Of a DNA stretch of 41,535 nucleotides, positions 25,058 through 41,535 are shown in pieces. The notes beneath the pieces are model-generated. The model was not told the origin of the DNA and searched no databases. It saw only the letters and a list, made by a program, of their open reading frames with translations. Position 1 is the stretch's first letter; each line of letters starts with the position of its first letter. Position numbers and translations under genes: made by a program. Source of the stretch: Xenorhabdus khoisanae. Its GTDB lineage: Bacteria > Pseudomonadota > Gammaproteobacteria > Enterobacterales > Enterobacteriaceae. The stretch covers positions 1 to 41,535 of the forward strand of contig NZ_LFCV01000066.1 in NCBI RefSeq assembly GCF_001037465.1, written 5' to 3'.

Positions 25058-25213
25058 ATGATTGAACAAAATCTCAAAGTAACATTAGTTCAAACCGATT
25101 TGTTTTGGGAAAGCGTAGAACAAAACCGTGGACACATTGAACAGCACATTGAAAAGATTACGGACAGTGATCTAACTATTAGGAATATAATCCTAATTAA
25201 TTTAGATGATTAG
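25058..25213 (+). pseudogene. Truncated yafV-like amidase gene
   Basis: A 51-codon open frame with a good GGAG ribosome site. Residues 1-39 (MIEQNLKVTLVQTDLFWESV up to TDSDL) resemble the N-terminus of YafV/omega-amidase nitrilase-family enzymes, which are about 255 aa and continue with IVLPEMF at this point. Here the sequence changes to unrelated residues after DSDL (about 25174) and stops at 25213. No nitrilase catalytic residues remain. The break coincides with the inferred left edge of the satellite, so the gene was probably cut by integration and the 3' part should lie beyond the right end of the window. Confidence 0.65.
25178..25197. other. Candidate left attachment core
   Basis: ATTAGGA-ATATAA-TCCTAAT is a perfect 7-bp inverted repeat around a 6-bp centre, the geometry of a tyrosine integrase core site. 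It lies 4 bp after the point where yafV homology ends. The matching right site would be outside the window, so this is unproven. Confidence 0.35.
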
Positions 25214-25382
25214 TGTGATTTTAATTTGCTAAAATATGGTAATGTTTATACAAATATTTATACACAATTCGCTGAACGAATACATAAGCTTGTTATAAGG
25301 TGAGAACATTAAGAATGCAGTGAGAGGTCAGTACGCTAAACACACCAACCTTGTGAGGGGTTCCGACGAATTTCGTCGGAAT
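25214..25382. other. Left end of the integrated element, non-coding
   Basis: No gene is visible. The palindrome ttccgacgaa-t-ttcgtcggaa lies at 25361-25381, immediately after the stop of the OB-fold gene on the minus strand. It may end leftward transcription, although no T-run follows in that direction. The AT-rich part before it could hold integrase arm sites. Confidence 0.4.
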
Positions 25383-25649
25383 CTATGGAACGATGGAAAA
25401 TACAGCCAACTGATAGCCCTGCCAGTAAGAAGCCTTTCCCGTCACCGTGATCACCTGCCCCTTCCGCAATAACATTACTGACAGTGCCACTTCATCAAAG
25501 CCAACGACACGCAGCGGGTAATCACTGCGCTTATTGCTCTGTACCTGCATGGTAGCAACTGCCATTACTTTATCTGTCTGACACTTGATACGCTTGGGTG
25601 CGACGGTAACCTTCCCTGTTACCGTGGTTGTGTTAGGTTGCCTTGTCAT
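25383..25649 (-). CDS. Small OB-fold, SSB/PriB-like protein
   Basis: An 88-aa protein built of beta strands in an OB-fold pattern: TTVTGKVTVAPKRIKCQT, VMAVATMQVQS, YPLRVVGFDEVA, LLRKGQVITVTGKASYWQGY, LAVFSIVP. This resembles small single-stranded DNA-binding or PriB-like proteins, but no catalytic or diagnostic residue fixes the function. The start codon follows the stop of the gpI-like gene directly (TAAATG), so the two are surely co-translated. It is the last gene of the satellite. In lambdoid phages the gene after I is the large tail fibre J, so its place here is unusual. Confidence 0.6.
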   Translation of the reverse strand: MTRQPNTTTVTGKVTVAPKRIKCQTDKVMAVATMQVQSNKRSDYPLRVVGFDEVALSVMLLRKGQVITVTGKASYWQGYQLAVFSIVP

Positions 25650-26252
25650 TTATTGCTGATCTTCGGTGTAGATACCCGCTGAGATAATAGCCCCGCCTAT
25701 TTCGCGTGTGCCGTATAGAACGGGAACCGGATTCCCCTGAGCTGTAGTATTGACTGGACCACCAAAAGCGTAACTGGGTTTATTTTCCGGTGACTCACGC
25801 ATTCGCAATCCGGGCATTTGAGGGGAAAGCATCTGGGCAACACCACCGAGGGCCATTGATGCTCCCGCAGCCCCAACGGAAAAAGCCATGTTGGCCGACA
25901 TAAATGCGGGTGGACTCCACACAGCTAAAGCTAACAATGCCACACCTAAAATAGTCTGAAATAATCCAGCACGTTTGCTACCGATAATGACAGGTAGAAT
26001 ATGAATATCCTCCGTCCCTTTTGTCATTTCCAGCTCATCTTGACTGATATTTCTCCCGCCCACAAAAATAGAAAATGTCAGCCCTTTTTTATGCGCTTCG
26101 GACATATATTTTTCAAAACCGGGTAACAGATTACGCATGGCATTAATAGCATGTCGGGCATCCCGTGCCTTATATTTAAATTCTTTTCCGAAGCGGGAAA
26201 TAAGAGGACCATGAAAGCGCACGGTGCGCATGGGAACATCGATAAAAGCCAT
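25650..26252 (-). CDS. Lambda gpI-like tail assembly protein
   Basis: A 200-aa homologue of the lambda tail tip assembly protein I. The N-terminal part (about residues 1-95) is the ubiquitin-like assembly domain (MRTVRFHGPLISRFGKEFKY, GTEDIHILPVIIGSKRAG). A hydrophobic middle (about 97-135) precedes the very conserved tail with MLSPQMPGL, SYAFGGPVNTTAQGNPVPV and a final GGAIISAGIYTEDQQ. The protein looks full length (lambda gpI 223 aa). I start at 26252, with AGAGG upstream; the open frame reaches 26357 but those residues do not look like the family. No other tail gene is present, so it cannot build a tail tip by itself. Confidence 0.85.
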   Translation of the reverse strand: MAFIDVPMRTVRFHGPLISRFGKEFKYKARDARHAINAMRNLLPGFEKYMSEAHKKGLTFSIFVGGRNISQDELEMTKGTEDIHILPVIIGSKRAGLFQTILGVALLALAVWSPPAFMSANMAFSVGAAGASMALGGVAQMLSPQMPGLRMRESPENKPSYAFGGPVNTTAQGNPVPVLYGTREIGGAIISAGIYTEDQQ

Positions 26253-26357
26253 AATTACCTCTAGATGATCTGGTTTTTCAATCATGATAAGAGTCAATAG
26301 GTTAAAATTATAACATCTTTCCTGTTCCTCCCTGCAACGTAATACGTATTCAGTCAT

Positions 26358-26768: not shown

Positions 26769-28442
26769 CTAAATCCCATCAAAGCTATCCAACCGCTGTT
26801 GCTGTTCTTCACTTAAGGTAAATGCAAAATCTTCATGTTCTGCTTGCCATGTGCCAAAACTCATCAGGAACGCGATTGCAGGATCTATCTTGTTCGCGGA
26901 CTTCTTCTTATTAGGTTTGATATTGGCGTTCGCGTCCGTTTCCATCACCACGTTGGACATTGCCCATGTGAGTACCGGATCGCCGTTGTGACGAATGACC
27001 TTGCGGTTAACGAACACCTCAGCGGATTTTGCCACCGGACTAAACCGCATATAAGTTTGCGGGAACGGCTCAACATCTAAGCCTGCGCCCTGTAGTTGGG
27101 TGCGTAGATGTGTGGCGTTCCATGTGTCGAAGCCGATGAGTTTGATATCAAACTGCTGACTGTCTTTGAGAATGTCATCCCGGATACGGTCATAATCTAT
27201 GCAATCCCCCGGTGTGGTACGTAACCAGCCCATTTGTACCCATTGCCGATAGATTGCCCGGTTCTTATTCGCCGGATTCTGTAGCTGGGCTTCGGGTAAA
27301 TAATGACGGGTGAGTAATAACAGCTCGTTATCCACCGGAAACGTATAGCAAATACTGGTGATATCCCCTGTGGAAGATAAATCCAGCCCGGCGTAACACT
27401 CCAGCCCCTTAAGATCGTTTTCATCGTATTCTGTCTGGCAGGCTTTCCAAGCGCCATCACCCATCCACGGCGTTTCGCCCTGGCACCAGATATTAAAGCG
27501 TTTGGTTAACATCTCTGTCCATTGTGATGGAATGCCCCGCGCCTTTTGGATAGTGTCATGCAATGAGGTGCTGTCTACGGACACATTGAGATTAGGATTG
27601 GCCTTAATCCAGAGCGTTTCATCATCAATCTCGTTCTCGTCGTCCAGCTCGTAGATCAGGGCGAACAGGGATTCGTTTTGTTCTTCGTCTGCCAGTATCT
27701 GACAGCAATAATCATAGTGCTGCTTACAGGCCGATATCACGTTACTGCCTGCGGTCGTAATGGCAAACAGAATGCCTTCGGGACGGGCGCCCATCCCCAA
27801 CTCAAGGGCAGAGTAAACGGCGTTATCCGGGTGCAAATGGTATTCATCGACAATGGCAAGGCTGGGGTTTGTGCCCTCAATGGTGGAGGCTTTGGCTGCC
27901 AGTGGTTTTAACAGGCTGTTACTCTTTGCATAAGTCACTTTATGTTGCTGGATAGCGACCCGTTTCTTAAGGGGTTTGGATAACAGGCACATCTGGCGGG
28001 CATCATCAAACACAATACGCGCCTGATCCCGGCTCACGGCGGCGGTGTAAATATCCTGCTGTCCCTGTTCCATGACCAAGAACCAGTTCGCCAACATTGC
28101 AGCAACCGTAGATTTGGCATTTTTGCGCGGGACTTGAATATAGGCACTGCGGTATTTCCGGCGTCCGGTTGCTTTGACCTTGAAGCCGAACAAATTAGCA
28201 AAGGCGAATTGCTGCCACGGCTCAAGCATGATGGGCTTACCGCGCAAGTGCCCTTTGACGTGGGGACAGAGGCGGGAAAAGCCAATAAAACGCTCTACCA
28301 CTTCGGTATCGAACGTATAAAGCGGGTTATTCCGGTCATTATAATAGCGTTTCACGGCCTGTTTCAGACGCTTACAGGCCGGAATAGTGCCATTTTCGAC
28401 ATCAAAAGCGTACTGCTCCCATGCGTTCATCGGTAATCTCAT
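26769..28442 (-). CDS. Terminase large subunit (HK97 type)
   Basis: A 557-aa packaging motor and nuclease. The ATPase part shows the HK97-type Walker A YIQVPRKNAKSTVAAML (about residue 100), Walker B LAIVDEYHLH and coupling motif ITTAGS. The nuclease part has acidic residues in YAGLDLSSTGDITSICY and IGFDTWNATHL, plus a late Asp in KKSANKIDPAIAFLMSFG. All regions look intact, so it should be able to package DNA. It overlaps the terS stop by one base (TGATG). It is the last gene of the head operon, followed by the hairpin-rich region. Confidence 0.93.
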   Translation of the reverse strand: MRLPMNAWEQYAFDVENGTIPACKRLKQAVKRYYNDRNNPLYTFDTEVVERFIGFSRLCPHVKGHLRGKPIMLEPWQQFAFANLFGFKVKATGRRKYRSAYIQVPRKNAKSTVAAMLANWFLVMEQGQQDIYTAAVSRDQARIVFDDARQMCLLSKPLKKRVAIQQHKVTYAKSNSLLKPLAAKASTIEGTNPSLAIVDEYHLHPDNAVYSALELGMGARPEGILFAITTAGSNVISACKQHYDYCCQILADEEQNESLFALIYELDDENEIDDETLWIKANPNLNVSVDSTSLHDTIQKARGIPSQWTEMLTKRFNIWCQGETPWMGDGAWKACQTEYDENDLKGLECYAGLDLSSTGDITSICYTFPVDNELLLLTRHYLPEAQLQNPANKNRAIYRQWVQMGWLRTTPGDCIDYDRIRDDILKDSQQFDIKLIGFDTWNATHLRTQLQGAGLDVEPFPQTYMRFSPVAKSAEVFVNRKVIRHNGDPVLTWAMSNVVMETDANANIKPNKKKSANKIDPAIAFLMSFGTWQAEHEDFAFTLSEEQQQRLDSFDGI

Positions 28443-28801
28443 CAGGCAATCAGCGCGTCTAAATCATCGGGTTCGTCGCTTTCGACCGGATTTCGGCGGC
28501 GGGATACCGGATCAAAGCCCAGCAGTGACGACATTTTAATCATGATTTTTTCGGCATCCGCTTTCGCTTTCAATGACGGGTTACTGGTGGCTGCGCCGCG
28601 TGAGCCTTCGACCGCGAACCCGCGCACCTCAATATCGGCCACGGCTTTACGGTAAATCGCATAGTTGACGCAATACAGTTCTAAGTTGTTCCAGTCCGCC
28701 GGGCTGAGGTCGTCACGCTCGTTAAGGATTTTGGCTTTTGATTTCCATTGTTGCGCGGCGATATCATTTAAATACTCAGGGGGTTTGGGTGCTCTTGCCA
28801 T
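28442..28801 (-). CDS. Terminase small subunit (P27 family)
   Basis: A 119-aa DNA-recognition subunit of the terminase. MARAPKPPEYLNDIAAQQWK, then ERDDLSPADWNNLELYCVNYAIY, is the standard start of the P27 family, followed by a helical middle with SNPSLKAKADAEKIMIKMSSLLGFDPVSRRR. I start at 28801; a farther upstream ATG at 28852 adds residues not seen in the family. As the subunit that finds the packaging site, it decides whether the element packages its own or helper DNA. Confidence 0.88.
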   Translation of the reverse strand: MARAPKPPEYLNDIAAQQWKSKAKILNERDDLSPADWNNLELYCVNYAIYRKAVADIEVRGFAVEGSRGAATSNPSLKAKADAEKIMIKMSSLLGFDPVSRRRNPVESDEPDDLDALIA

Positions 28802-28936
28802 AACTTTATGTTTCCTATGAAGATTACTGCTATTGAAAAAAGTGCCGTGCATAAAAATTTGAGGACGCGGCGGTTCTTTTTAGCGGGGCGTTTGTCATTT
28901 TTAATCCCCCCACCTCGTTATCTCATTGCGTTATTA
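28802..28936. promoter_or_regulatory. HNH-terS gap with C/G tract, possible cos region
   Basis: A 135-bp gap inside an otherwise tightly packed operon. On the minus strand it contains CGAGGTGGGGGGATT (28902-28916). In HK97-like phages HNH, TerS and TerL act together at a cos site close to these genes, so this gap is one candidate for it. No cohesive-end sequence can be recognised by eye. Confidence 0.3.
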
Positions 28937-29368
28937 TCATTCAATCAACCAATCACGACGCCTTGCTGCCTCTGCTTCCAGTTCCCGATACTCACCATTC
29001 TTACGCCGCTGTTTGGTTGCCGGGTCTGTCTGCACGGTCTTACGGTTATGGCAGCCATGGCACAGGGCTTGATGATTGAAGTCAGGCCAAAACAGCACAT
29101 CACTGTCACCGTCTATCGGGATAATGTGGTCAACGATAGTTGCAGGTGTGTAGCTGTTCTGCTTGAGGCAATGCACACATAAGGGGTGAGCCTTGAGGTA
29201 TATCAATCGGTAGCGTCCCCATCGGTTACTGTAGCCTCGTTCGGTACGTGTGCCTCGCTGCTTATCCTGTTGGCGTCTGGCTTCCCGTTGATGCTCCACA
29301 CAGCGACCCGACTTTACCCGTTGCTTACATCCCGGATAGCTACAGCGCTTTAAAGGTTGCCACGGCAT
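28937..29368 (-). CDS. HNH endonuclease of the packaging module
   Basis: A 143-aa HNH nuclease. Zinc-binding cysteine pairs are at the N-terminus (CSYPGCKQRVKSGRC) and around the active site (CVHCLKQ and CHGCHNRKT). The HNH core reads VDHIIPIDGDSD ... FWPDFNHQALCHGCHN. In HK97-type systems such HNH proteins stimulate terminase cutting at cos. It overlaps the connector stop by one base and lies just before terS, the standard place. Confidence 0.9.
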   Translation of the reverse strand: MPWQPLKRCSYPGCKQRVKSGRCVEHQREARRQQDKQRGTRTERGYSNRWGRYRLIYLKAHPLCVHCLKQNSYTPATIVDHIIPIDGDSDVLFWPDFNHQALCHGCHNRKTVQTDPATKQRRKNGEYRELEAEAARRRDWLIE

Positions 29369-29670
29369 CAGAAGATCCCCACATCACGATAGACAGACCA
29401 CAGGGATTTAATGGTGAAAGGCACTTCTTTAAGCTCAATGTCTACCGCCATTGCCCGATTTTCATACAGCAAGCCGATATAGAGTAAGCAGCCTACTTTA
29501 ATTGCAGGGCTGAATATCAAGCCCTCTTCAAATCGCTTACCGATATGTTGCTGGCAGACTTCCAATGCAGCCTCGGCATAGCCCTTGAGCAGTTCATCTT
29601 CAAGTGTATTGCTTTCATCTATCCGGCAATGTTGTTTGATTTCATCAAGGCTGATTTCTGGCTGACTCAT
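29368..29670 (-). CDS. Head-tail connector protein (gp6-like)
   Basis: A 100-aa adaptor of the phage gp6-like head-tail connector family, which forms a ring under the portal. The start MSQPEISLDEIKQHCRID, the LKGYAEAALEVCQQHIGKRF helix and the C-terminal VPFTIKSLWSVYRDVG are typical. I start at 29670, which overlaps the portal stop by ATGA. In a satellite that borrows tails, this ring is the natural docking surface for the helper's tail. Confidence 0.85.
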   Translation of the reverse strand: MSQPEISLDEIKQHCRIDESNTLEDELLKGYAEAALEVCQQHIGKRFEEGLIFSPAIKVGCLLYIGLLYENRAMAVDIELKEVPFTIKSLWSVYRDVGIF

Positions 29671-30884
29671 TCCTTGCCCTCCGGTTGTTTCTTCACTTCT
29701 ACCGTCTGCTTCCATGCCTGACTGAATTCATCACCTCCTTCACGGGGTGATAATCCCTCACGTTCACGGGCTTCATTCGGGCACATCACCCCTGACTTAA
29801 TCGCCGTCTCATAACTCTGGAAGCGTTCTTTCGGATTGGCTCGCAGCAGGTCAGCCGTATCAAACTCGACTTGGTAACGAATGCCTCTTTTCGGTGATGC
29901 CATCAGTAAGGCCGATTTGATTTGTTGCTCAAAGTTGGCAAGCCACGGGCGCATGGTGATAGTCAGGAAAGCGCGTGATGCTTCACTAAAGTTGCTGTAG
30001 GTGCTGTTCGAATACTCTTGCAGAAAGATAGGGCTGACATTGAACATCCGGGCGATATCGTCAATGGTGAAACGACGGGAAGCCAGCCATTCCGCATCCT
30101 GATTACTCATGCCTAATTGCTGGTATTCCATCCCGCCTTCAAGGATCGGTGTTTTCCCTGCATTGCGAGCGCCCTTGTAACGTTCGAGGGCTTCCAGTGC
30201 CTTAGCGCCTTTCGTGCCATCTAACCAATCGGCGGATTTAATCACGCCCGCCGCCATCATCCCCTCTTTCATAATGCTTGCACCGTGGCGTTGTTGTGCC
30301 AGTCCCAAGCCCAATGTTTCACGGCAAATGGTGACAGGCGAACGCCCCAGAAAGCCGTCTTCGGTGGCATAACGCAAATGCAGCACTTCTTCTTGCAGGT
30401 AGGTTTTGACCTTGCCGCTATAAGGTTCAGTGATGGTATAAGCGAACCGGTGATCGGATAATCGTTGAGGGACAACCGCTGACGGCGGGTAAGGGTGTAA
30501 CGATTGTGGCTGTCCGTCGTTGCCCCAGATTATCACGGCATAAGCGTTGCCGTTCAGTAAACAATGGCGCATCAGCGTTCGCTTAAACTGAAACGGGGTC
30601 TGGCAGTCGTTCGGGCACTCATTGAGCAAATAATCCACCGGGTGATCGCTTAACCACTCGCGGGACTCTTTCCCGTGCTGGTGCTGAACCCGATAGAGAT
30701 AACAGGGCATGGTTGCCACCGCTTCACTAATCACCGTGACGGCATTCATCACGGCGGGTAAACCTTCGGCTGTCGAGGGTGAAACATGCTCGCCCGATTT
30801 GGTGTTAGATACGCCTGCCAGAGAAAGAAACTCATCAATGGTCATACTGCGAGTCTCAGGGTCTTTACGCTTAAACGGCCACAT
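29667..30884 (-). CDS. Phage portal protein (HK97 gp3 family)
   Basis: A 405-aa portal protein that forms the dodecameric DNA channel at one capsid vertex. Typical segments: MWPFKRKDPETRSMTIDEFL, VISEAVATMPCYLYR, HPVDYLLNECPND, MRHCLLNGNAYAVIIW, and the late FTIDDIARMFNVSPIFLQEY. The C-terminus has NPKERFQSYETAIKSGVMCPNEAREREGL-type segments, split over 30 residues. GAGGTGTAACC precedes the start, 2 bp after the protease stop. Confidence 0.92.
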   Translation of the reverse strand: MWPFKRKDPETRSMTIDEFLSLAGVSNTKSGEHVSPSTAEGLPAVMNAVTVISEAVATMPCYLYRVQHQHGKESREWLSDHPVDYLLNECPNDCQTPFQFKRTLMRHCLLNGNAYAVIIWGNDGQPQSLHPYPPSAVVPQRLSDHRFAYTITEPYSGKVKTYLQEEVLHLRYATEDGFLGRSPVTICRETLGLGLAQQRHGASIMKEGMMAAGVIKSADWLDGTKGAKALEALERYKGARNAGKTPILEGGMEYQQLGMSNQDAEWLASRRFTIDDIARMFNVSPIFLQEYSNSTYSNFSEASRAFLTITMRPWLANFEQQIKSALLMASPKRGIRYQVEFDTADLLRANPKERFQSYETAIKSGVMCPNEAREREGLSPREGGDEFSQAWKQTVEVKKQPEGKE

Positions 30885-30886
30885 GG

Positions 30887-31426
30887 TTACACCTCGGACA
30901 GTTGCAGCCAGTAGTGGCGCAAATTGCAGGGCTTAACTGCATTCAGCGAACGTTTGGCGATCTCCACGCCACTCTCAGGGTAGGCGGGCAGACTGGTGAT
31001 CGTGATTTCCCTCAACTCGGCTTCTAATACTGTCCTGATATAAGGCTCCTGACCAATGTCCCACTGATCCTTCAATGCCCTGAACCCAAAGGACATACCG
31101 GAAATATCACCCCGTTCAACCAGTGTCAGCACATCGCGCCCCAATTGGGTATCTGGCGGGGTTAACTCAAAACGTAATCCGGTGGCATCTTCACTTAATT
31201 GCAATGTGCCGGACGTGGTACGGCCTAACAGGTTCATGTGATCATGTTCATACAATGCCCTGACATCAGTATTTGCCGTCAAGCTGGTACTAAACGCATT
31301 CGGGGCGAACTGTTCGACAAATTCATCCCATAAGATTTGTGATCGGCTGTTCCACTTAATCACATAACCGGTCAGCTTCTTATCGCTGGCAGAAAGTGAT
31401 GCCGTTCTTAATTCAATATCATTCAT
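30887..31426 (-). CDS. HK97-family prohead protease
   Basis: A 179-aa serine protease that cleaves the capsid scaffold domain during maturation. The catalytic His lies in ALYEHDHMNLLGRT and the catalytic Ser in RGDISGMSFGFRALKD; the acidic third residue is probably in VLEAELREITITS. Start has GGAG about 10 bp upstream. Its substrate should be the N-terminal coiled-coil domain of the neighbouring capsid protein. Confidence 0.9.
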   Translation of the reverse strand: MNDIELRTASLSASDKKLTGYVIKWNSRSQILWDEFVEQFAPNAFSTSLTANTDVRALYEHDHMNLLGRTTSGTLQLSEDATGLRFELTPPDTQLGRDVLTLVERGDISGMSFGFRALKDQWDIGQEPYIRTVLEAELREITITSLPAYPESGVEIAKRSLNAVKPCNLRHYWLQLSEV

Positions 31427-31470
31427 TCGATGAACTCCAAGACGGAAAAGGGGCTTTTCGCCCCTCTCAC

Positions 31471-32784: not shown

Positions 32785-32805
32785 AGACCTCAAAATAAGA
32801 GGTCT
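32777..32805 (-). terminator. Rho-independent terminator ending the early region
   Basis: On the minus strand AGACCTC (32805-32799) and GAGGTCT (32791-32785) form a 7-bp stem with a 7-nt loop, followed by TTTTTATT. This is a standard terminator. It lies about 47 bp after the stop of the 86-aa gene and separates replication-side genes from the head operon. Confidence 0.8.
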
Positions 32806-33364: not shown

Positions 33365-33401
33365 AACGTTCTCCATTTTTGTATATATACAGTGAAAAGT
33401 T

Positions 33402-33799: not shown

Positions 33800-36511
33800 T
33801 TATTCTTCTATCTCATCAGTAGAATACATCACGACATAATACTTACGGGGTGAGCCGTTATGTTTCATGCCTTGCACCTTAAAGCCCCCATTTGCCGCCT
33901 TTTTCAGCATGCCCGACTCTGCCAGAACACGCGCAAACATCTTTGGCTCAAACCCTTCTGATACCTCTGCCTCAAACACATCGGGGAACGTGTAAAAATG
34001 AATAATTCCACCCTTGTTGGGTATATCGCTGGTATCTTTCCGATAGCCTGCCAGATTAGAAATATTGGCATGATCATAGGTGTACGGTTCCGGTGCATAC
34101 CGATTCAACCCGAAGCGATCTAAAAATGCCTCAGTCTGTTCCCGAACTTGTTGGTGTTCCTTATTGGTAGTACCAAATTCAGTCACCCACGCATTAAAGC
34201 AGTGCTGTATAGCGTCCCGGCTTTCCTGTTCTGTCCATCCGGTAAGGTGTGTTGCTGCGATAAGTGCCCCCTCTAAGATGGCGAACCGTTCAGACACACG
34301 GGGAAGTTGCGCACCAGCCCCTTTGGGGATCAATCCATTCCATCGGGTTTTGGCCTCCTCAATAGTGTTTCTGGTCGCTTTTTGATGCTGAGTCAGATAC
34401 TCACACCATACCCGCCCAATAGCCCCGTGATTGTCGGCAATGGCTTTTTCGATTGCCTTAGCGTGCTCTCTGGCATCCTGACAACCATGAAAGACGGTCG
34501 GGCTACCAAACGGGATATTCAGTAACCGGACAAGCTGACCCGCTTTCAGGCGCTTACCTTCACTTCTGACAAAGGTATCAAGATCGACCTCACCTGTACT
34601 GATAGCAATAGTTTTAAATTGAAGAATGTCACGGTTGCCGCCATTTTTTGCCCCTTGTAGCTTTCCCTTGCCGTTAAACAGCGCATAAGACGCATTCGCC
34701 ACATCTTTAACCGACGAACCTTGTCCAACCTCATCAAGCGGTAAAAGATTGTTGTTATGGGCGGCTGCTTCGTTAATCAACCCTAATGTTGTTGCAAACC
34801 ACGTCAAACGCATGGCTGACGGCTCACCGAACACACTACACCCCACGCTTTGCGCCGTGGTTTTCCCTGCGGTGCTCTGGTCGTAGAAGTGAACACCAAA
34901 GCCATCATCACGCAGTAAACCAATAACAGGGGAAGCCAATGCGGAAGCAATGGACAGCATCATAAACGGATTGCCTTTGGCTAGTTTTGCCACAGAATCA
35001 CGCCAGCTTTCAGGGGTTCCTGACACGGTATACCCTCGTATTGATGACGTTCTGCCACAAAAGATAACCGATTTTTCTGGATTGCCGATAACTTCACCTG
35101 TCGGAAAGATATAAGCCCCATGCTGCCAGCCTGTCGAATGGGTGATATGCCAGTCAGTCTTTTTAGCGCAACGTTGCAACCAGTCCGCCAGAATGCCACG
35201 TAAAAAGGGTTTAGTGGCAATATTCAGCCCTGCCGCTTTGAGTTGCCGCCAGCCTTCACGCTCACCAATATCACCTGTTCTCACCGCCTCAGTGTACGTT
35301 GTGCCGTCTTCCTCCCATTGGATAATAAGATAAAATTCAATATCATCACGACCTCGCCCGATCACCTGCATGGCATCACTGAGCCATTGCTCATGGTTGA
35401 TGACTTCGCCACTCTCTTTGTCTACCTTTGGAGTCACGTAGTAAATCCCATTTTTGCGTGAATCAATAAATGGCTTTAACGGATCACGCTCTTTCGCCCG
35501 GTGTTCGTCCAGATTGATAACTACAGATTTTGCTACTGACATGTTCTCACCTACCTGATATAACCCTTCATTAAACGCCCGCTTTGCTGCCTCAATGCCG
35601 TTCTGCTGGCGATAATCGTCCCAGTCGGCTTTGTGTTCTGTGGGCGGTAACGTGACCCACCCGTTGATCGCTTTGGCGGTTTTCTCGGCTGCAATCTTGC
35701 CGACGTTCTTCTTGGGCTTGCCTTTGTCGTCCAGTTCGCCCGGTGTGTGCCAGTCGTTATCCGCCGCCAGAATGATTTTCGCTGTTGGCCACCGTTCTCT
35801 CACCAGCCCGGCAACGGTCGATAAATTACCTTCATCCAGCGCAGCCAGTACTAAGCCCTCATGCAATTGACTGACCGTTAAGGCCGTTGCATATCCCTCG
35901 GCAATGATGAAAGTATCTGGTGTTCCGGTGATGGGGGATAAGGGGATAAAACTCCCCTTTTTCTGAGTGCCAGAGACAAGGCGTTTTTCACCCGTCGGTT
36001 TAATGACCTGAGCACCAGTTATCACGCTGTCCAGTGCCTGAGTGACCAGCACCAAAGAGCCATCTTTCAGTAATTGCTGATCGGGGCATGGTAGCCCCTT
36101 GTTAGTCAGATAGTCGGATTGCCCGGCAGTGGCCTGAGCTAATAACTTGTTCACTTTTTCAGCTATCGGTTGAGCCTCTGATTTCGGAGCCTCCTTTCTG
36201 GCGGGCTTGGGTTCGGGTAAAGGTAACAGCAGCGCATCAGAAACAGCTTTCACGGCCTCAGTGATCGTGATTCCCTTAGCCCTCACCAACAAATCAAAAC
36301 CATCACCATACTGCGGGTTATCACACTGGCGGCAATGCCAGTTACCGTCTCCGTGGTCGTCGATGAAGTGAAAGCGGTCAGTGCCCCCGCATATCGGGCA
36401 AGCACCATGCTTACCCTTCGCCGGAACATCCACCCCACAGGCCGCCAACAATCCGTACCACTGATCTTGCGCCGCCGTTTTCACTGACCGGATATCAATA
36501 TGGCTTACCAT
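33800..36511 (-). CDS. P4 alpha-like primase with Toprim and DUF927 helicase domains
   Basis: A 903-aa replication protein. The N-terminal zinc finger has Cys38, Cys41, Cys60 and Cys63 (ACPICGGTDRF, NWHCRQC). The Toprim-like primase core shows IIAEGYATALTVSQL and KIILAADND, as in P4 alpha. From about residue 340 a DUF927 ATPase/helicase domain follows, with the Walker A-like YDQSTAGKTTAQS. A C-terminal region ends in HNGSPRKYYVVMYSTDEIEE. Start overlaps the 101-aa gene by 7 bp. It should prime and unwind DNA at the adjacent iteron array, giving the satellite autonomous replication. Confidence 0.92.
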   Translation of the reverse strand: MVSHIDIRSVKTAAQDQWYGLLAACGVDVPAKGKHGACPICGGTDRFHFIDDHGDGNWHCRQCDNPQYGDGFDLLVRAKGITITEAVKAVSDALLLPLPEPKPARKEAPKSEAQPIAEKVNKLLAQATAGQSDYLTNKGLPCPDQQLLKDGSLVLVTQALDSVITGAQVIKPTGEKRLVSGTQKKGSFIPLSPITGTPDTFIIAEGYATALTVSQLHEGLVLAALDEGNLSTVAGLVRERWPTAKIILAADNDWHTPGELDDKGKPKKNVGKIAAEKTAKAINGWVTLPPTEHKADWDDYRQQNGIEAAKRAFNEGLYQVGENMSVAKSVVINLDEHRAKERDPLKPFIDSRKNGIYYVTPKVDKESGEVINHEQWLSDAMQVIGRGRDDIEFYLIIQWEEDGTTYTEAVRTGDIGEREGWRQLKAAGLNIATKPFLRGILADWLQRCAKKTDWHITHSTGWQHGAYIFPTGEVIGNPEKSVIFCGRTSSIRGYTVSGTPESWRDSVAKLAKGNPFMMLSIASALASPVIGLLRDDGFGVHFYDQSTAGKTTAQSVGCSVFGEPSAMRLTWFATTLGLINEAAAHNNNLLPLDEVGQGSSVKDVANASYALFNGKGKLQGAKNGGNRDILQFKTIAISTGEVDLDTFVRSEGKRLKAGQLVRLLNIPFGSPTVFHGCQDAREHAKAIEKAIADNHGAIGRVWCEYLTQHQKATRNTIEEAKTRWNGLIPKGAGAQLPRVSERFAILEGALIAATHLTGWTEQESRDAIQHCFNAWVTEFGTTNKEHQQVREQTEAFLDRFGLNRYAPEPYTYDHANISNLAGYRKDTSDIPNKGGIIHFYTFPDVFEAEVSEGFEPKMFARVLAESGMLKKAANGGFKVQGMKHNGSPRKYYVVMYSTDEIEE

Positions 36512-36810
36512 TTTGGGAATCCCTCACGGTGATGGATTTCAAAATCCGCATGCTGTGCTGTGTCGTTCAGGGCCTCGGCGATCCTCGGTAAATACATCAG
36601 GGCTTCACCGATGCGGCGTAAATCGTCCCTTGCTTGACAATCAGCATAGTTTTCGTTGTCTGCTGACCAGAAAGCCAGTTCGCCCATTGCAGACATCGCC
36701 GCCATCACTGCACTGTGCGCACCGTCTGAATGCTTGCGTAAGTCTTTTAGCTCCTTAGTGTCCATGGTGCTAAAGTTGTTGCGTACCAAGTGGTTATAGA
36801 TATCAGACAT
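36505..36810 (-). CDS. Unknown 101-aa phage/satellite protein
   Basis: Not recognised to function. It begins MSDIYNHLVRNNFSTMDTKE and is mostly helical, with a charged N-terminus and HADFEIHHREGFPKW at the end. Similar short proteins are common just before P4-type primases in enterobacterial prophages. It begins 2 bp after the stop of the DUF4222-like gene and overlaps the primase start by 7 bp, so all are translated from one message. Confidence 0.65.
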   Translation of the reverse strand: MSDIYNHLVRNNFSTMDTKELKDLRKHSDGAHSAVMAAMSAMGELAFWSADNENYADCQARDDLRRIGEALMYLPRIAEALNDTAQHADFEIHHREGFPKW

Positions 36811-36812
36811 AA

Positions 36813-36983
36813 TCAGGCTCTCCCTGCGTAGGTGTATTCTTTAGTGAAACGGCTTACTGGCATGATGCACGGGTTGTTGTAACCATCACGGACAAACGTC
36901 ACGCGATTAAAGGCGACTGACAGCACCTGAACGGTTTCCCCGTTTTTATGGGTGTAGTAGTCATGGGGGGCAGGGTTAGGCAT
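36813..36983 (-). CDS. DUF4222-like small protein
   Basis: A 56-aa protein: MPNPAPHDYYTHKNGETVQV, then LSVAFNRVTFVRDGYNNPCI and MPVSRFTKEYTYAGRA. The pattern (aromatic start, VxVxSV, RVTFxRxGY, P-x-x-x-F-x-x-x-Y/F) fits DUF4222, a small fold common in enterobacterial prophages, of unknown function. The start overlaps the Icd-like stop by 8 bp and the stop is 2 bp before the next start, so translational coupling supports it as a real gene. Confidence 0.75.
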   Translation of the reverse strand: MPNPAPHDYYTHKNGETVQVLSVAFNRVTFVRDGYNNPCIMPVSRFTKEYTYAGRA

Positions 36984-37224
36984 GGTTCACCCCCTGAACG
37001 GTAGACATATCGCTACGGTTGAAAGGGGTATCGATACCGATATCCCATGCTTGACGGGAAACAAATATCAGTGAGGAAATGCCAGCCAGTAAACGGGCTT
37101 CATTTTCGCTATCCGCCAGTACAGTAATCAGGCGTACCGGGTGAATATCCACCAGCCGCTGAGTGCCAGATGCAATTAGGAATGTAAATTTAAGGCGAGT
37201 TTGGTTATGCTGTTGTATAGCCAT
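36976..37224 (-). CDS. Icd-like host cell division inhibitor
   Basis: An 82-aa protein starting MAIQQHNQTRLKFTFLIASG, ending in QGVNHA. The N-terminal TQ/QT-rich start, the KFTFLIAS strand and the ENEARLLAG helix are those of the Icd/Ash-type family annotated as host cell division inhibitor Icd-like; P1 icd and P4 kil are functional relatives. GGAG lies 9 bp before the start. The same reading frame stays open without a stop back to 38235, which could give a 419-aa form, but that extension runs antisense to the DUF3950-type gene and through repeats. First gene of the unit leading to the primase. Confidence 0.75.
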   Translation of the reverse strand: MAIQQHNQTRLKFTFLIASGTQRLVDIHPVRLITVLADSENEARLLAGISSLIFVSRQAWDIGIDTPFNRSDMSTVQGVNHA

Positions 37225-37318
37225 AATCGTTACTCCAGTTAACGGTTGTTGGTTAGACGCCTCGATAGTGTTTGCCGCACTTCGGGGCGTTGTTATTTTT
37301 ACCATCACATCAGTGAAG

Positions 37319-37424
37319 GTGTTTAAATACATTACGCCATAATGTTTAAACACGTCAAGAGGAATTTGTTTAAACACTTTCGAAAATTTGTTCGATGGTG
37401 TATCTTTATAAGTGTTAAAACACT
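37319..37424. promoter_or_regulatory. Palindromic operator array in a divergent promoter region
   Basis: Four related sites: gtgtttaaat (37319-37328), tgtttaaacac (37343-37353), tgtttaaacac (37367-37377) and agtgttaaaacact (37411-37424). Their centres are about 23, 24 and 46 bp apart, a multiple of two helical turns with one position skipped. The last lies just before the RHH gene, the first nearer the Icd-like gene. This suits cooperative binding of a small dimeric repressor, most simply the adjacent DUF3950-type protein, acting on both promoters. Confidence 0.65.
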
Positions 37425-37441
37425 TTTTTGAGATGAGGCAT

Positions 37442-37642
37442 ATGGCGACAGGACACAAAAACAACAAATCAGGGTACAAGGGAATACGCTTCCCACATGA
37501 GTTAATCGAAGAAATAAACGATAGTGTGGAAGTGAATAAACCTTCTAATCCAAGTGCTAATTTTTCAGCATGGGTTATTGATGCATGTGAACGAAAACTC
37601 AAATCAGAAAAACGCAAAGCCAAAGCATCATCTGAGCAGTAA
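37442..37642 (+). CDS. DUF3950 / YlcI-YnfO-like ribbon-helix-helix protein
   Basis: A 66-aa basic protein: MATGHKNNKSGYKGIRFPHE, then LIEEINDSVEVNK and NFSAWVIDACERKLKSE. GIRFPHELIEEI followed by a helix fits a ribbon-helix-helix DNA-binding fold (beta strand, helix, helix), as in the DUF3950/YlcI-YnfO family. GATGAGG precedes the start. It is the only rightward gene in the element and is divergent from the Icd-primase unit. The operator array directly upstream suggests it represses itself and the early operon. It could be the satellite's own immunity-type regulator; this is inferred. Confidence 0.75.
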   Translation: MATGHKNNKSGYKGIRFPHELIEEINDSVEVNKPSNPSANFSAWVIDACERKLKSEKRKAKASSEQ

Positions 37643-38231
37643 GACCAGAATTTAACTAACTGATTTAACTCATGACGCAAATATGCGTGATCCCAAAGGG
37701 TAGCATTCGCCGTGCTATCCTTTTCTTTTTGTACCTGACTAACTGTCAGTCGCAGAGTTTGCGCGTCGCTAAATGAACCGCGCAAAGTTTGTGAGCAAAT
37801 ATCATTTACGCTCAAAGCTATTTGCGAGTAACTACCTGTTACGCTCAAAGTCCGATTATCGGATATTGGATTTTGCATACCGATATTTTCGGTGCTCAAA
37901 CTATGACCAGACTGCAAATATGCCGTTTGATTGAATATCAATGGGTTAAGTAACTGACCCACAATTAGTGGGGCAGTTGAACTATGACCAAACGCCAAAT
38001 ATGGCGTCTGGATATTTATCAATGAGTTATTGGGGTGTGAGAAATTTTTCGCATACCCATCAGCTAAAATTTCAGCCGATGTATAACCAGCCAAAGTGAC
38101 GGCCTCGGGGAAATCAATAAGTTGCTGTAAATGTGACTGAGCGAAAAGTTTCTCTGAGTGAAGACTCCTTAACCTCAAGGAGTCACCAGAAATAATAGTG
38201 TCGCTTAAAGCTATAGAATTGCCTCCGTGCA
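37643..38231 (-). repeat. Repeat-rich region with long open frame
   Basis: An 81-bp direct repeat is visible: ctatgacca at 37901 and 37982, atcaat at 37937 and 38018. A shorter motif GCKCAAA[GC] ends at 37787, 37817, 37850 and 37901, at offsets of 30, 33 and 51. All offsets are multiples of three. On the minus strand one frame stays open, reading repeat-like segments such as TPYLAFGHSST and TAYLQSGHSLST, then TLSV, ALSV and TLRG units. Its ATG at 38235 overlaps the stop of the 309-aa gene. It may be a repetitive Ash-like protein or an RNA hairpin array; I cannot decide. Confidence 0.55.
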
Positions 38232-39161
38232 TCATTTTATTTCTCTCATCTCAATACCATTAGCTGTATATCCCTGAACCCGAACGCCCTCAACACGGTG
38301 ACGTTTTTTGGTCAGAAAGCGAATGTGATCGGCATAGACATAGAGCCACTGACCATCTACAGCAATGCGCTCAAATGTTTTTATTGGTCGTTTTGTATAC
38401 TGGACAAATGGAGTTATATTGTTGTTTTTAATGTTTATTTTTGTGCGTAAGGGGGTGCTTTTCTCTTTGTGTCGATAAACCCAAAAGTCTTGAAGGCTAC
38501 CTGTGATTTTCCTAGTTCGAACCTTGATATAACCCAGCCGCTTCATGAGTCGGCTAAATTCTGCATTGTCCTTAATTACCTGTGTGATATACACCAACGA
38601 CTCACTCCTCCAGCCTTTCGCCTGATAGCACTTCGCCAATTCATGATGGTGTTGTTTATTGAGAATGGTGTATTTGTCTGGCTGGTTTGGATTGCGGTAC
38701 AAGATCCAGTTATCAACCGCTTGCTTTCGTTGTTTTTGCTCAATCAGTAATGCGAACGTCGCTAAAGGCACACCATTTTTGCGTGTGTGATATTCGGAAC
38801 TGATTGAAGCGATGATATTTAGGGCATAGCTATCAATATCTTTTAGCTGGACAAATCCATAATAGTTACCACTATTCAAATGGTTAACTGAGCACACCCC
38901 TGAATGATACTCATAGGACTGCTTATCCTTTCCTGTCAGCCCTGTATCACTTTCTGCATCGTGAACCGATACACCAGAATTAAGCCAGACCAACCCTTGA
39001 CCATTATGACGTAATCCCAAATCAGTGAGTGTACAAATACCTTTGTTAATCGATGACCAGTTACCGGAAATAACCGCTTTGCGAATAATTGAAATATCAT
39101 CTTGACTATTTTCAGAGTGAGCGAAGCCCTGACCATTTAAGGCCACCTTTTTAGATGTCAT
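38232..39161 (-). CDS. Unknown 309-aa satellite protein
   Basis: Function not recognised. The first 75 residues are Gly/Ser/Asn-rich and contain two similar segments, VALNGQGFAHSENS and LRHNGQGLVWLNSG, in the same style as the repeats in the next region. The rest (about 100-309) looks like a folded basic protein, with YITQVIKDNAEFSRLMKRLGY and WLYVYADHIRFLTKKRHRVEG; the WVYRH and VYADHIRFLTK segments suggest strands and possible nucleic-acid binding. AGGG precedes the start. It lies between the AlpA-like gene and the repeat region. Confidence 0.6.
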   Translation of the reverse strand: MTSKKVALNGQGFAHSENSQDDISIIRKAVISGNWSSINKGICTLTDLGLRHNGQGLVWLNSGVSVHDAESDTGLTGKDKQSYEYHSGVCSVNHLNSGNYYGFVQLKDIDSYALNIIASISSEYHTRKNGVPLATFALLIEQKQRKQAVDNWILYRNPNQPDKYTILNKQHHHELAKCYQAKGWRSESLVYITQVIKDNAEFSRLMKRLGYIKVRTRKITGSLQDFWVYRHKEKSTPLRTKINIKNNNITPFVQYTKRPIKTFERIAVDGQWLYVYADHIRFLTKKRHRVEGVRVQGYTANGIEMREIK

Positions 39162-39179
39162 ATTTTTACCCTGTCTTAA

Positions 39180-39461
39180 TTAATTTGATTTTCGGCTATA
39201 GGGGTTATTTACGTTCTCTACTGTGGGCGGGTTGCGTACCCAATGCAGCAGCTCACTGAGCAACCAAGCACAGGAATTGCGGCCTAATGGTTTACGGGCA
39301 GGGAAGCGACCTTCGTTTTCCAGCTTCCATGCGGAAGTACGGGAAATAGAGGTGATGTGATGGCGCTCCTTTTCACGTACAAGACGATCATAAGGTTCAC
39401 CATACTCGGAAAGGATAGAGCGACGTTCTTCTGGTGTTGGTGAAATAAATTGATTTTGCAT
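39180..39461 (-). CDS. AlpA-family transcriptional activator
   Basis: A 93-aa protein with an AlpA-type winged helix-turn-helix: ITSISRTSAWKLENEGRFPAR, then KPLGRNSCAWLLSELLHWVR, the usual S-R-(S/T)-x-x-W/Y..L-x-x-E/G-x-FP..G-x-x-x-x-W-x-x-S-E-x-x-x-W pattern. The N-terminal 35 residues are extra. In Gram-negative PICIs and P4-like elements AlpA proteins activate excision or early genes, and are a hallmark of these elements. It starts 18 bp before the 309-aa gene. Confidence 0.85.
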   Translation of the reverse strand: MQNQFISPTPEERRSILSEYGEPYDRLVREKERHHITSISRTSAWKLENEGRFPARKPLGRNSCAWLLSELLHWVRNPPTVENVNNPYSRKSN

Positions 39462-39566
39462 GCTACCCTCATGGTTTCAGTGTTTTCATGAGGGTGATTT
39501 TGCCTATAAGTAGTTTGTTTTTACGGTGATTATTGATAAAAAATTTTTAGTTCCTGTGGACTAAAT

Positions 39567-40463
39567 CTAATTCCCGTTCCACTTTGAAGGGTTATAAACT
39601 TTACTTAACAGCCTTTCGATGCTTTCAATCTCAAGGGGCGGCTTTCCTTCTTGCGGCCAAAATTCTAGAGCAGCTAAATCAATTTGCTTAGCCCATTCTG
39701 TATAAGAATTGCATTTATCTGGATATTTTTTCTGGATGTACATAGCTGCCATTAAAACTGCTTCACGCTTTGCAGCAAATCTTTCTCCATTTCCATGTGG
39801 TGTCTTGATGGTTTCTTTTTCCGTTCTCTCAGGTTCTATGCTGCCATTGATGAATCTTTGTAATTCAGTTTTTGTGATAAGCATTTTATCTATTGACACG
39901 GGGTATTTTATTCCTGAGATTGCTGTAGGCTTATAACCTATACCTTCTTCTTCTTCAACTCTTGCTGTTAGATCATATATTTTATAGTTGTCAGATTTTG
40001 GCAGAGTTAAAACTGTTTCGTTAAAAATATCGCCTTTAAGTAATTTGTTTTCAGAGAATCTAAATAGTTCATTACTTAAAGCAAATAGACCATTAATTTC
40101 TATTGCTCTATGCTCTAACTCTTTCTGTTTATAATTATATCGTATTTGCTCTTCAATCAAAGTAACGTCTGTTTCGTAGGCAAGTTCAATATATGACAAA
40201 GGAGGCTCTTCGCCATTGCATAACGTCAATGCCTCTGTCGCTTTAACATAATTATATCTTGAAAACACTCTCATTCCATCCGCTTCAATCGAATCCATAT
40301 CAAATCCATTCTGCCAATTCACCTTCACGCATATTTCAAGATCACCTATAGCGGCATAATGAACTAAGTCTTCTAGATCACACGGAATACCTATTTCTCT
40401 TTCTATTTTATGTAAAGGAAAATATCTTCTTTCTGGTAAATTAATAATTCTATTTTTTTTCAT
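39567..40463 (-). CDS. Unknown 298-aa protein between integrase and AlpA
   Basis: No certain function. The N-terminus (LPERRYFPLHKIEREIGIPC, DLEDLVHYAAIGDLEICVKV) looks like a MerR/HTH-like DNA-binding module. The C-terminal 75 residues (FAAKREAVLMAAMYIQKKYP, SYTEWAKQIDLAALEFWPQE, PPLEIESIERLLSKVYNPS) form a second domain that I have seen in regulators of integrative elements. AAGGGTAACGCA precedes the start. The middle (EEQIRYNYKQKELEHRAIEI) is helical. Position next to the integrase suggests control of excision. Confidence 0.65.
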   Translation of the reverse strand: MKKNRIINLPERRYFPLHKIEREIGIPCDLEDLVHYAAIGDLEICVKVNWQNGFDMDSIEADGMRVFSRYNYVKATEALTLCNGEEPPLSYIELAYETDVTLIEEQIRYNYKQKELEHRAIEINGLFALSNELFRFSENKLLKGDIFNETVLTLPKSDNYKIYDLTARVEEEEGIGYKPTAISGIKYPVSIDKMLITKTELQRFINGSIEPERTEKETIKTPHGNGERFAAKREAVLMAAMYIQKKYPDKCNSYTEWAKQIDLAALEFWPQEGKPPLEIESIERLLSKVYNPSKWNGN

Positions 40464-40557
40464 TGCGTTACCCTTAACACTACCCTAAAAGTTTAGCGAA
40501 ACAGGCAAGTAGGGTTTCTTGCTTTTCACCCCGTCGGGCTAGTCTCGCCGTGTCAGT

Positions 40558-41535
40558 TTATGCCGTTTTACTGCCGATTAAAACCACATTTTCATAATTA
40601 CCCGCCAATACATCCAGCCGCTCACACCACTTGTTTAAGGCGTCTAGCTTCTCTGGTAGGTATTGGCTCTTGTTGTATATAGCCATGATGCCCGGTAGTG
40701 CATGGCCTAACAGTTGCTCAACTACATGAGGTGCTATGCCCATATCATTTAGCTTAGTTGCTAAGGTGCGTCTCAAATCATGTAATGTCCATTTTTCCGT
40801 ATGCCCTAATTTTTTCCATACTCTTGTCCCATATTGAGCTACTGTCACACTATCTTTTAACTCACCAAGCAGATAGCCACTTTTATAATTTTCATAAATT
40901 AATTTACTCAAGAATGGTTTTAAATATTCAGGGATTGGACGAATAATTTTTCCCCCTGATTTACTGTGTTCTTTTGGAACAGTCCATAGCATTGAATCAA
41001 AATCCCATTCTGAGTATTTTGATAATCTAGCCTCTTGAGTTCTACAGCCAAATACAATCAAAAGTATTAATAAATTACTGTAATAAGGAATATAGGTATT
41101 TGTACTTATAGATCTCCATAATTGACCTAACTCATTATCTGTTAAAACCCTGTCCCCTTTATTTTGCAATTTACCTACATCTGGAATCGTTAAATCATCT
41201 AGCGCATTACTAATAGCAAATTTCCTTACCCGGCAAAATTTTAAAGCTTGCTTGCAGAGTTGAAATATATATCCAGCAGAAACGGGGGATTTCTTCTTTA
41301 TATTATCAAAACATTTAAGCCAATAGCGCGTCTCGCAGTCTGATAATGCCATATTCCCAATATTTGGATAAATATATTTATTTAGTTGGGCTATAAGTTT
41401 ATCAATGCCTGCACGGTTGTCTCTTCCATAATTTTCGATCCAATACTCAATGGCTTCTCTTACTGTTACGGGTTTTAATGACTCTTGCATATCCAAGTTA
41501 AATTGTAACTTCGGATCTTTGCCAGAGGCTAACCA
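40558..41535 (-). CDS. Tyrosine integrase, 5' end outside window
   Basis: A P4-type site-specific recombinase, cut by the window edge. The frame runs without a stop to base 41535, adding WLASGKDPKLQFN before a TTG at 41496, so the true start is farther right; the ASGKDP segment belongs to the arm-binding N-terminal domain. The core-binding domain follows (about 312 further residues in total). Catalytic residues visible are Arg in FGCRTQEARL, Lys in PKEHSKSGGK (likely), His-x-x-Arg in HDLRRTLATKL, His in LLGHALPG and Tyr in MAIYNKSQY. It should integrate and excise the satellite. Confidence 0.9.
   Translation of the reverse strand, partial: WLASGKDPKLQFNLDMQESLKPVTVREAIEYWIENYGRDNRAGIDKLIAQLNKYIYPNIGNMALSDCETRYWLKCFDNIKKKSPVSAGYIFQLCKQALKFCRVRKFAISNALDDLTIPDVGKLQNKGDRVLTDNELGQLWRSISTNTYIPYYSNLLILLIVFGCRTQEARLSKYSEWDFDSMLWTVPKEHSKSGGKIIRPIPEYLKPFLSKLIYENYKSGYLLGELKDSVTVAQYGTRVWKKLGHTEKWTLHDLRRTLATKLNDMGIAPHVVEQLLGHALPGIMAIYNKSQYLPEKLDALNKWCERLDVLAGNYENVVLIGSKTA

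Follow-up and report, generated by a model that had tools for sequence, protein, structure and literature searches.

The right-hand part of the window (the whole 41,535-nucleotide stretch of Xenorhabdus khoisanae DNA analysed here, contig NZ_LFCV01000066.1) is best explained, taken as a whole, as nearly all of a capsid-forming phage-inducible chromosomal island (cf-PICI) of Xenorhabdus (positions 25,168-41,535), a reading to which we give a probability of about three in four. The element is a new member of an already known type, with one feature for which no description was found, namely a gene for a homologue of the lambda tail-tip protein gpI located after the gene of the large terminase subunit (TerL). 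The original prediction had listed gpI as a mere accessory; it is the more interesting part of the element. A literature search found no title reporting gpI in satellites, and the central cf-PICI papers may mention it in their text.

General organization of the element

The cf-PICI interpretation, proposed earlier, is supported by (i) gene content, (ii) gene order, (iii) an iteron cluster, (iv) estimated size, (v) the left arm of an attachment (att) site and (vi) an int-alpA RNA, and also by the matching order of genes in Escherichia coli islands inserted between core genes and in sequence LR881103. Twenty ORFs of the element were compared with the Pfam and PHROGs databases. The predicted set of integrase, AlpA, primase, capsid, prohead protease, portal, connector, HNH endonuclease, terminase small subunit (TerS) and TerL was borne out by the matches, all of these genes being present as co-oriented open frames (the integrase is partial). 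Likewise, the predicted lack of a tail module and of lysis genes held among the 20 ORFs, where the sole tail gene was gpI (phrog_32) and no lysis gene was matched, the last ~0.4 kb up to the right att site lying outside the assembly. The visible part of the element is 16.4 kb and its estimated total size is ~16.8 kb (left att placed by homology, right att outside the assembly); the average given for cf-PICIs in the available text of PMC10803314 is ~14 kb.

The integration and regulation module typical of PICIs is composed of a tyrosine integrase (40,558-41,535; Phage_integrase, E 1.1e-15), whose N-terminal part is cut by the contig end, an AlpA regulator/excisionase (39,180-39,461; Phage_AlpA, 8.2e-14; phrog_2790, 3.4e-34) and the int-alpA RNA (40,483-40,549; RF02996, 55.7 bits vs. 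a gathering threshold of 35.8), with genes mostly in one direction (the minus strand, which carries all features of the element given here unless indicated otherwise). A protein without a Pfam or PHROG match is encoded between int and alpA (39,567-40,463), and a further protein is encoded beyond alpA (38,232-39,161; 81% in the related locus L088 and two matching segments, 69 and 50%, in LR881103). The 419-aa ORF at 36,976-38,235 is probably not a single gene, since its family match is confined to residues 350-394 (phrog_20855, E 2.8e-08) and a DUF3950 protein (37,412-37,642, plus strand; DUF3950, 1.5e-07; phrog_949, 8.1e-23), antisense to the rest, is encoded within it.

The primase-helicase (33,800-36,511) contains zinc ribbon, Toprim and DUF927 domains (DUF927, 1e-44; Toprim_3, 3.8e-11; phrog_1139, 1e-153) and is accompanied by a small protein (36,505-36,810; phrog_6805, 7.1e-49) and a DUF4222 protein (36,813-36,983; 1.8e-23), the latter being a primase neighbour in E. 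coli cf-PICIs as well. The iteron origin suggested before corresponds to a real cluster directly downstream of the primase (33,402-33,776), with nine exact ACCGACAA copies distributed over both strands. The whole window contains 10 exact sites vs. 1.10 expected from shuffling, and none of 100 shuffles yielded as many as 10. This cluster is likely the replication origin; origins of GN-PICIs are described as sitting downstream of pri (PMC10111431, available text). Two further small proteins are encoded at 33,131-33,442 (phrog_1231, 1.3e-13) and 32,852-33,112 (phrog_1957, 1.3e-23).

Head and packaging module

The module encodes (i) an HK97-type major capsid protein (31,471-32,622; Phage_capsid, 3.6e-64), (ii) a prohead protease (30,887-31,426; Peptidase_S78, 9.4e-47), (iii) a portal protein (29,667-30,884; Phage_portal, 3.6e-95), (iv) a head-tail connector, adaptor Ad1 (29,368-29,715, with a likely start nearer 29,670; Phage_connect_1, 7.9e-07; phrog_40, 1.4e-28), (v) an HNH endonuclease (28,937-29,368; HNH, 6.8e-06; phrog_144, 2.9e-37), (vi) TerS (28,442-28,852; Terminase_4, 5.4e-24) and (vii) TerL (26,769-28,442; TerL_nuclease, 9.6e-54; TerL_ATPase, 5.6e-30). 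The head and packaging genes listed in the original prediction are intact, but the set is not full, as no match to a head-closure/stopper gene was found between portal and connector, where the gap is -45. This gene is also absent in 60 of 295 loci (a raw count, not dereplicated, with the window element counted twice), and head closure was therefore not treated as defining for cf-PICIs.

Attachment site and ends of the element

The host DNA at the left junction contains a 5' fragment (~40 codons; 25,061-25,179, plus strand) of a yafV-like amidase gene, with which the intact copies in congeners align up to position 25,179. All five CN_hydrolase matches in genome G000 begin at profile position 1-2, so none of them is the missing 3' part of this gene. 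The fragment overlaps the attachment-site arm of the element (25,168-25,213, plus strand), which codes for the C-terminal tail of MetA (DLTIRNIILINLDD-stop) and corresponds to the 3' end of metA in loci L122 and L124, where the gene is intact and related cf-PICIs abut it. In genome G312 the metA element is bounded on either side by a 16-nt direct repeat (AAGATCATATGGCGTT), and among 11 integrases compared that of this element is the most similar to the one in the window (87.5% vs. 47-79% for the others). The contig ends at 41,535, inside the integrase gene, and in the G312 sister element the att repeat is reached 421 nt past the point homologous to this break. Judged from that element, the right end would be located ~0.4 kb past the contig. 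The earlier bounds (25,175-41,535) enclose nearly the whole element, while its start is at the att arm (~25,168) and its right end is past the contig. In related loci, direct repeats of at least 14 nt between element ends were not found for L088 or L093. Such repeats were seen for L094 and L101, for L086 (18 nt, placed by eye where a hemF-like gene begins) and for L083, in which several occur close to fis.

A decayed prophage that has lost its tail and lysis genes was suggested by the partial phage gene set and the fragmented assembly. We reject this explanation as very improbable: disrupted head genes, named beforehand as its expected sign, were not found, every head ORF being open; portal, TerL and gpI are under purifying selection (see below); and the same tail-less layout is flanked by core genes in E. 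coli and by att repeats in G312. Even less probable, and also rejected, is a complete small phage with its tail genes past the right-hand break of the contig. Such a view draws on the break inside the integrase gene, but the position of the G312 att repeat and the E. coli islands, which end at int, speak against it.

Related elements

A near full-length copy of the capsid gene product (355 or more of the 383 residues, 86% or higher) was found in 23 of 30 congeneric genomes, a count that is not dereplicated and includes the genome of origin. At E 0.001 a capsid match was obtained in 28 of the 30, some of these matches being fragments or distant phage capsids. The lineage of the window element is common in the genus. 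A Morganellaceae element with its accessory genes, DUF3950 among them, had been regarded as unusual, which does not agree with these counts, with the listing of Morganellaceae among cf-PICI hosts in the available text of PMC10803314, or with the antisense DUF3950 gene also present in LR881103.

The proposed comparison with cf-PICIs of E. coli (roxA-phoQ in O157; yhdJ-fis) revealed the same gene order in islands placed between core genes: int, an AlpA-type regulator, primase and capsid-protease-portal-connector-HNH-TerS-TerL in one direction, and neither a tail module nor lysis genes among the annotations. The window element differs in having no head-closure gene and in carrying gpI and a small gene for an OB-fold-like protein (OB gene) after TerL. 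Escherichia phage vB_KppS-Ant (LR881103) is a 16.5-kb "induced prophage" with the same order, antisense DUF3950 included (capsid, 70%; TerL, 79%; int, 66%); it differs by an extra gene between portal and adaptor and by a solitary tape measure gene replacing gpI after TerL. Pasteurella phage Pmp8 (OR544139; 15.3 kb) has the same head module (TerL, 73%), but a HK97 gp10-like neck protein is encoded after its TerL and its integrase region is far diverged (20%).

The gpI homologue and the OB gene

The first gene after TerL (25,650-26,252; frame open to 26,357) encodes a 200-aa homologue, counted from the ATG (MAFIDV), of the tail-tip insertion/plug protein gpI (phrog_32, E 7.5e-75). The match is full-length (phrog_32 positions 3-201 of 203), and that to lambda gpI (PDB 8iyk, chain I; E 2.8e-22) spans residues 17-212 of 223, including the C-terminal J-binding part. 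In lambda, gpI is described as a trimeric plug of the tail-tip lumen, which contacts J and the end of the tape measure protein and closes the DNA exit (PMC11101478 and PMC10721106, available text). K and J were not found around the window gpI, and the lambda K-gpI-J neighbourhood is absent. Judged by these alignments, the protein is a homologue of lambda gpI, of the same family over nearly its full length, in a new setting: unlike the lambda gene, that of the window belongs to a satellite which has no J, K, L or M.

Among three Xenorhabdus satellites, dN/dS was 0.05-0.06 for gpI (in an alignment whose three satellite rows carried six codons upstream of the ATG), 0.02-0.05 for portal and 0.03-0.04 for TerL; the genes measured here all evolve under purifying selection. 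The C-terminus conserved in phage gpI is retained in the satellite protein, as one would expect if the copy is functional. A satellite-specific change in gpI was considered and rejected, the hydrophobic middle varying strongly between many phage pairs too. The window gpI and a prophage in its own genome have 327 identical bases in common, vs. at most 30 in four other relatives, which points to recent genetic exchange between the satellite and the resident prophage.

Directly after the gpI stop codon starts the gene of an 88-aa OB-fold-like protein (25,383-25,649). Of the gpI and OB-fold pair noted earlier, gpI is strongly matched, whereas the OB-fold assignment is backed weakly (SSB, E 0.012, below the Pfam cut-off). 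The dN/dS of the OB gene is 0.16-0.21. In loci L170 and L171 gpI occupies the same slot after TerL and is followed by an orthologue of the OB gene. A general role of the OB gene in a gpI module was rejected, as it follows TerL without gpI in L084, L099 and L250 and occurs in other contexts elsewhere. Structure models of both proteins were poor (mean pLDDT of 56 for gpI and 52 for the OB protein), and the conclusions are independent of both.

Distribution and history of gpI among satellites

A solitary gpI gene after TerL was found in 9 of 80 named TerL loci, from eight other genera (not dereplicated; the 80 named and 80 viral loci of each scan are best matches, not random samples). Within 8 kb after TerL, none of K, L, M and J was detected in these nine loci, and M, L and K were detected in L326 only among the 80. 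Of the dereplicated viral contigs found by TerL, 36 of 120 carry gpI (57 of 178 raw), the window element itself being one of the 36. This frequency depends on the query: 3/30 for TerL of E. coli (an element without gpI), 16/60 for the window TerL and 19/34 for that of L294, two of the three queries (window and L294) thus coming from gpI-bearing elements. A gpI frame of at least 180 codons is open in 34 of the 36 contigs (exceptions, L579 and L515); the gene is broken in L144 and L147, and the coordinates of L525 are identical to those of the broken L147 copy.

The 120 contigs yielded no M, L or K and one match to J, and 74 of them carry none of the tail genes tested; the queries were Xenorhabdus-phage and a few other sequences, with which diverged tail genes may be missed. 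Seven E. coli loci were read: gpI is present, shortly before fis, in the two fetched by a gpI search and absent in the other five. These five islands likewise carry none of the tail genes tested, so, as judged from them and from the 74 contigs, gpI is not a general requirement of cf-PICIs. What follows TerL varies between loci; when 59 further ORFs from this slot were compared with PHROGs, the 25 listed families (of 33) included none of tail proteins.

The gpI tree (quick search, LG+G4; L247 dropped, some branches long) requires at least 12 changes between phage and satellite labels, a figure in which captures are not separated from replacements. Satellite labels also cluster on the tree (12 changes vs. 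a shuffled mean of 22), so part of the pattern is inheritance.

Possible role of the satellite gpI

cf-PICIs are described as requiring only phage tails. By analogy with known cf-PICIs, the satellite would excise and replicate on helper induction, build a small head and package its own DNA with its own TerS and TerL, and the particle would be completed by the tail of the helper. We propose, at slightly less than even odds, that the satellite gpI is fitted into the tail tip when a lambda-type tail is borrowed, the satellite thereby supplying or tuning the part that serves as gate and in membrane entry. Recombination with the helper phage's own gpI gene would keep the satellite copy matched to the local helper. 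More tentatively, some cf-PICI lineages may refit stolen tails, single genes for lumen parts (the gpI plug; elsewhere the tape measure) repeatedly entering the slot after TerL, and gpI staying in step with the local helper through gene conversion. If so, a refitting satellite would govern how the DNA gate of a borrowed tail works and how the envelope is entered, tying gpI to helper and host range; a tail-tip plug gene that recurs in satellites under selection would mean that chimeric particles owe some of their infection machinery to the satellite; and what sets their helper and host range would become directly testable via one 600-bp gene.

Alternatively, gpI and the OB gene could be passengers acquired by recombination with lambda-type prophages beside the att site, with no role in satellite transfer, as the varied cargo of the slot, the broken copies in L144 and L147 and the absence of gpI from most sampled elements might suggest. 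We consider this unlikely in view of the low dN/dS of gpI, the at least 12 label changes on its tree, and the recurrence of the same lone gene in the same slot across several genera, M, L and K having been detected in L326 only and in none of the 120 contigs (one J match). Capture of prophage late genes by satellites has been proposed in work on PICIs, helper-embedded ones included (PMC10111431); there, however, late-gene clusters are captured, and in the available text gpI is unmentioned and the M and L Pfams figure in no satellite model. It is more doubtful still that the satellite gpI acts as an interference factor, which would enter or block helper tail tips and lower the infectivity of the helper or of competitors, comparable with Tai and Tab, which work by other means. 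Tail-assembly inhibitors are indeed known in PICIs and prophages (PMC11364771 and PMC10884400, available text), but the PICI Tai genes are described as sitting downstream of pri rather than after TerL, the conserved C-terminus of phage gpI is kept, and a cf-PICI is cited in PMC10803314 (available text) as not significantly altering helper production.

Gene content and relatives of the element

Contig C66, one of 265 in its assembly, makes up the whole window, and the element (25,168-41,535) runs to the contig end. From right to left it comprises (i) a tyrosine integrase gene, truncated on its N-terminal side by the contig end, an int-alpA RNA (RF02996), AlpA, genes of no assigned function and an antisense DUF3950 gene; (ii) DUF4222 and a primase-helicase; (iii) an iteron cluster (33,402-33,776) and two small genes; (iv) capsid, protease, portal, connector, HNH, TerS and TerL genes; and (v) gpI (25,650-26,252, minus strand), a small OB-like gene (OB; 25,383-25,649, minus strand) and an att arm. 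Apart from the cut integrase, all these ORFs are open. Judged by gene order and relatives, the element is a capsid-forming PICI (cf-PICI), as originally predicted: capsid relatives occur in congeneric genomes, and the order is shared by E. coli islands and by LR881103 (Escherichia phage vB_KppS-Ant; 16.5 kb, deposited as an induced prophage), the antisense DUF3950 included. The predicted iteron origin is supported by nine exact ACCGACAA copies within the cluster.

The head set, first described as full, is open from capsid to TerL and lacks a head-closure gene: sister elements carry one between portal and connector, and none was found there in the window. In raw counts, 235 of 295 loci had a head-closure match, and 60, the window included, had neither a match nor space for one; such elements may take the stopper from their helper.

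The element had also been called unusual for Morganellaceae, a view that we abandon, because PMC10803314 already lists the family among cf-PICI hosts and a search for capsid relatives gave matches in 28 genomes out of 30 from the genus, counting the window's own. A near full-length capsid copy at no less than 86% identity occurs in 23 of the 30, often several per genome. The window's genome holds at least two more head modules, one on C60 and another on C15 and C7, possibly opposite ends of a single element. In E. coli, 473 of 5,426 complete genomes have a TerL akin to the LR881103 protein, and in 423 of these the match spans 80% of the query or more.

Boundaries and integration site

Window positions 25,168-25,213 encode the C-terminal tail of MetA. 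This att arm lies beyond OB at the left end, and gpI and OB are therefore inside the element. In two loci (L122 and L124), related cf-PICIs lie directly against an intact metA gene at its 3' end, and at the metA site of genome G312 a 16-nt direct repeat flanks both ends of an element whose integrase is the closest to that of the window (87.5%; the rest of the 11 compared, 47-79%). The right end is absent from the contig; since the G312 repeat lies 421 nt past the point homologous to the contig end, the full element would measure about 16.8 kb.

Here, by contrast, the first ~40 codons of a yafV-like gene take the place of metA beside this tail, and the two share a short core around GATCT; we read the junction as secondary-site integration or a later rearrangement. 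A congener's MetA gave no match in the window's assembly, in a search without a positive control in that genome, yet the element ends in a metA tail. At 24,875-25,061 of the window, a Nudix gene adjoins the yafV-like gene; about 18 kb separates the two in several congeners, where, read by eye, the yafV-like gene stands beside reductase-, ABC transporter- or synthetase-like genes. The adjacency is likely a deletion.

A tail-tip gene after TerL

The gpI product matches phrog_32 over nearly its full length and lambda gpI of solved tail tips (8iyk, E 2.8e-22). In structural reports (PMC11101478, PMC10721106), lambda gpI is a trimer inside the tip lumen that contacts gpJ and the tape measure end and plugs the DNA exit, its two hydrophobic helices being proposed to enter the outer membrane.

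Xenorhabdus elements L170 and L171 also have an intact TerL-gpI-OB order, which is disrupted in L144 and L147. Of 80 named loci, which are best TerL matches, 9 have a solitary gpI after TerL (two Serratia, one with two tandem copies, and Hafnia, Pantoea, Pectobacterium, Winslowiella, Intestinirhabdus, Kosakonia and Enterobacter), and gpI occurs in 36 of 120 dereplicated viral contigs found by TerL, the window element among them. Its frequency differs by TerL query: 3/30 for E. coli, 16/60 for the window and 19/34 for a gpI-bearing Enterobacter element. The habit is thus lineage-bound, and the pooled share is no population estimate. In two E. coli islands, located between yhdJ and fis, the sole annotated tail gene is gpI, which immediately follows TerL. 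By DNA similarity, one gpI type has a match spanning at least 80% of the query in 4 E. coli genomes out of 5,426. Four Serratia-type cf-PICIs have a tandem pair of differing gpI genes; the L278 pair sits on separate tree branches.

Capture of late-gene clusters by PICIs has been proposed, and a survey reports tail genes M and L for no satellite model (PMC10111431), which makes the recurrence of gpI more striking. Provisionally, we regard the pattern in satellites as new.

Origin and possible role of gpI

Among three Xenorhabdus satellites, gpI had a dN/dS of 0.05-0.06; portal gave 0.02-0.05, TerL 0.03-0.04 and OB 0.16-0.21. The gathered loci held 218 gpI genes, labelled by their neighbours as satellite (57), phage (153) or unclear (8). 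A quick tree was built from 100 representatives, of which 25 were satellite and 75 phage. Its labels require 12 changes, all forced by the starred branches, against about 22 with shuffled labels; satellites thus acquired or replaced gpI on many occasions, with inheritance as well in some lineages. The same genome has a lambda-type prophage on C153 whose gpI shares 327 identical bases with the window gpI, from 9 nt before the ATG, compared with at most 30 in four other relatives. Such identity points to a recent exchange and names this prophage as a possible helper.

By analogy with the cf-PICI family, the satellite would excise, replicate, build its own head, package its own DNA and borrow a tail. 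The gpI gene retains its full length, evolves under selection, lies beyond the packaging genes and matches that of a resident phage, so the most economical reading of the sequence is that its product would be built into the tips of borrowed lambda-type tails. It may help by dosage, tune DNA release or interfere with helper tails. The many elements without gpI make it possible that the gene is a passenger.

In genome G313 (C1, about 915,500-931,300; L679 and L678 with L088), a cf-PICI lies within what, judged by eye, is a lambda/HK97-type prophage, whose tail genes it interrupts at a point between chaperone region and tape measure. Upstream of the cf-PICI integrase stand head, tube and chaperone-like genes; the tape measure gene and M, L, K, I and J lie downstream. 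The arrangement resembles a helper-embedded cf-PICI. In X. kozodoii (L326), a tape measure gene with M, L and K likewise lies downstream of the cf-PICI.

Other genes after TerL

Among the same 80 best-matching loci, 10 from Pasteurellaceae have an HK97 gp10-like neck gene after TerL and 5 from Xenorhabdus a tail fibre; one locus has a tape measure there and one a longer series of tail genes (H, M, L, K); none of these or gpI was detected after TerL in 54, a few with less than 1.2 kb in view. Besides gpI, the 120 viral contigs gave matches to tape measure (H; 5), fibre (4) and J (1), and 74 had none of the tail genes sought.

A solitary tape measure gene directly follows TerL in two cf-PICIs (L289 and L103), and tape measure-type H matches do so in four further loci. 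The neck protein was seen after TerL in eleven Pasteurellaceae cf-PICIs (PHROG match checked on L302 alone) and tail-fibre genes in eight Xenorhabdus cf-PICIs (checked on L267 alone); the latter are a possible source of altered host range. On C77 of the window's genome (L038), pieces of the OB gene and surrounding non-coding DNA are repeated several times within the contig.
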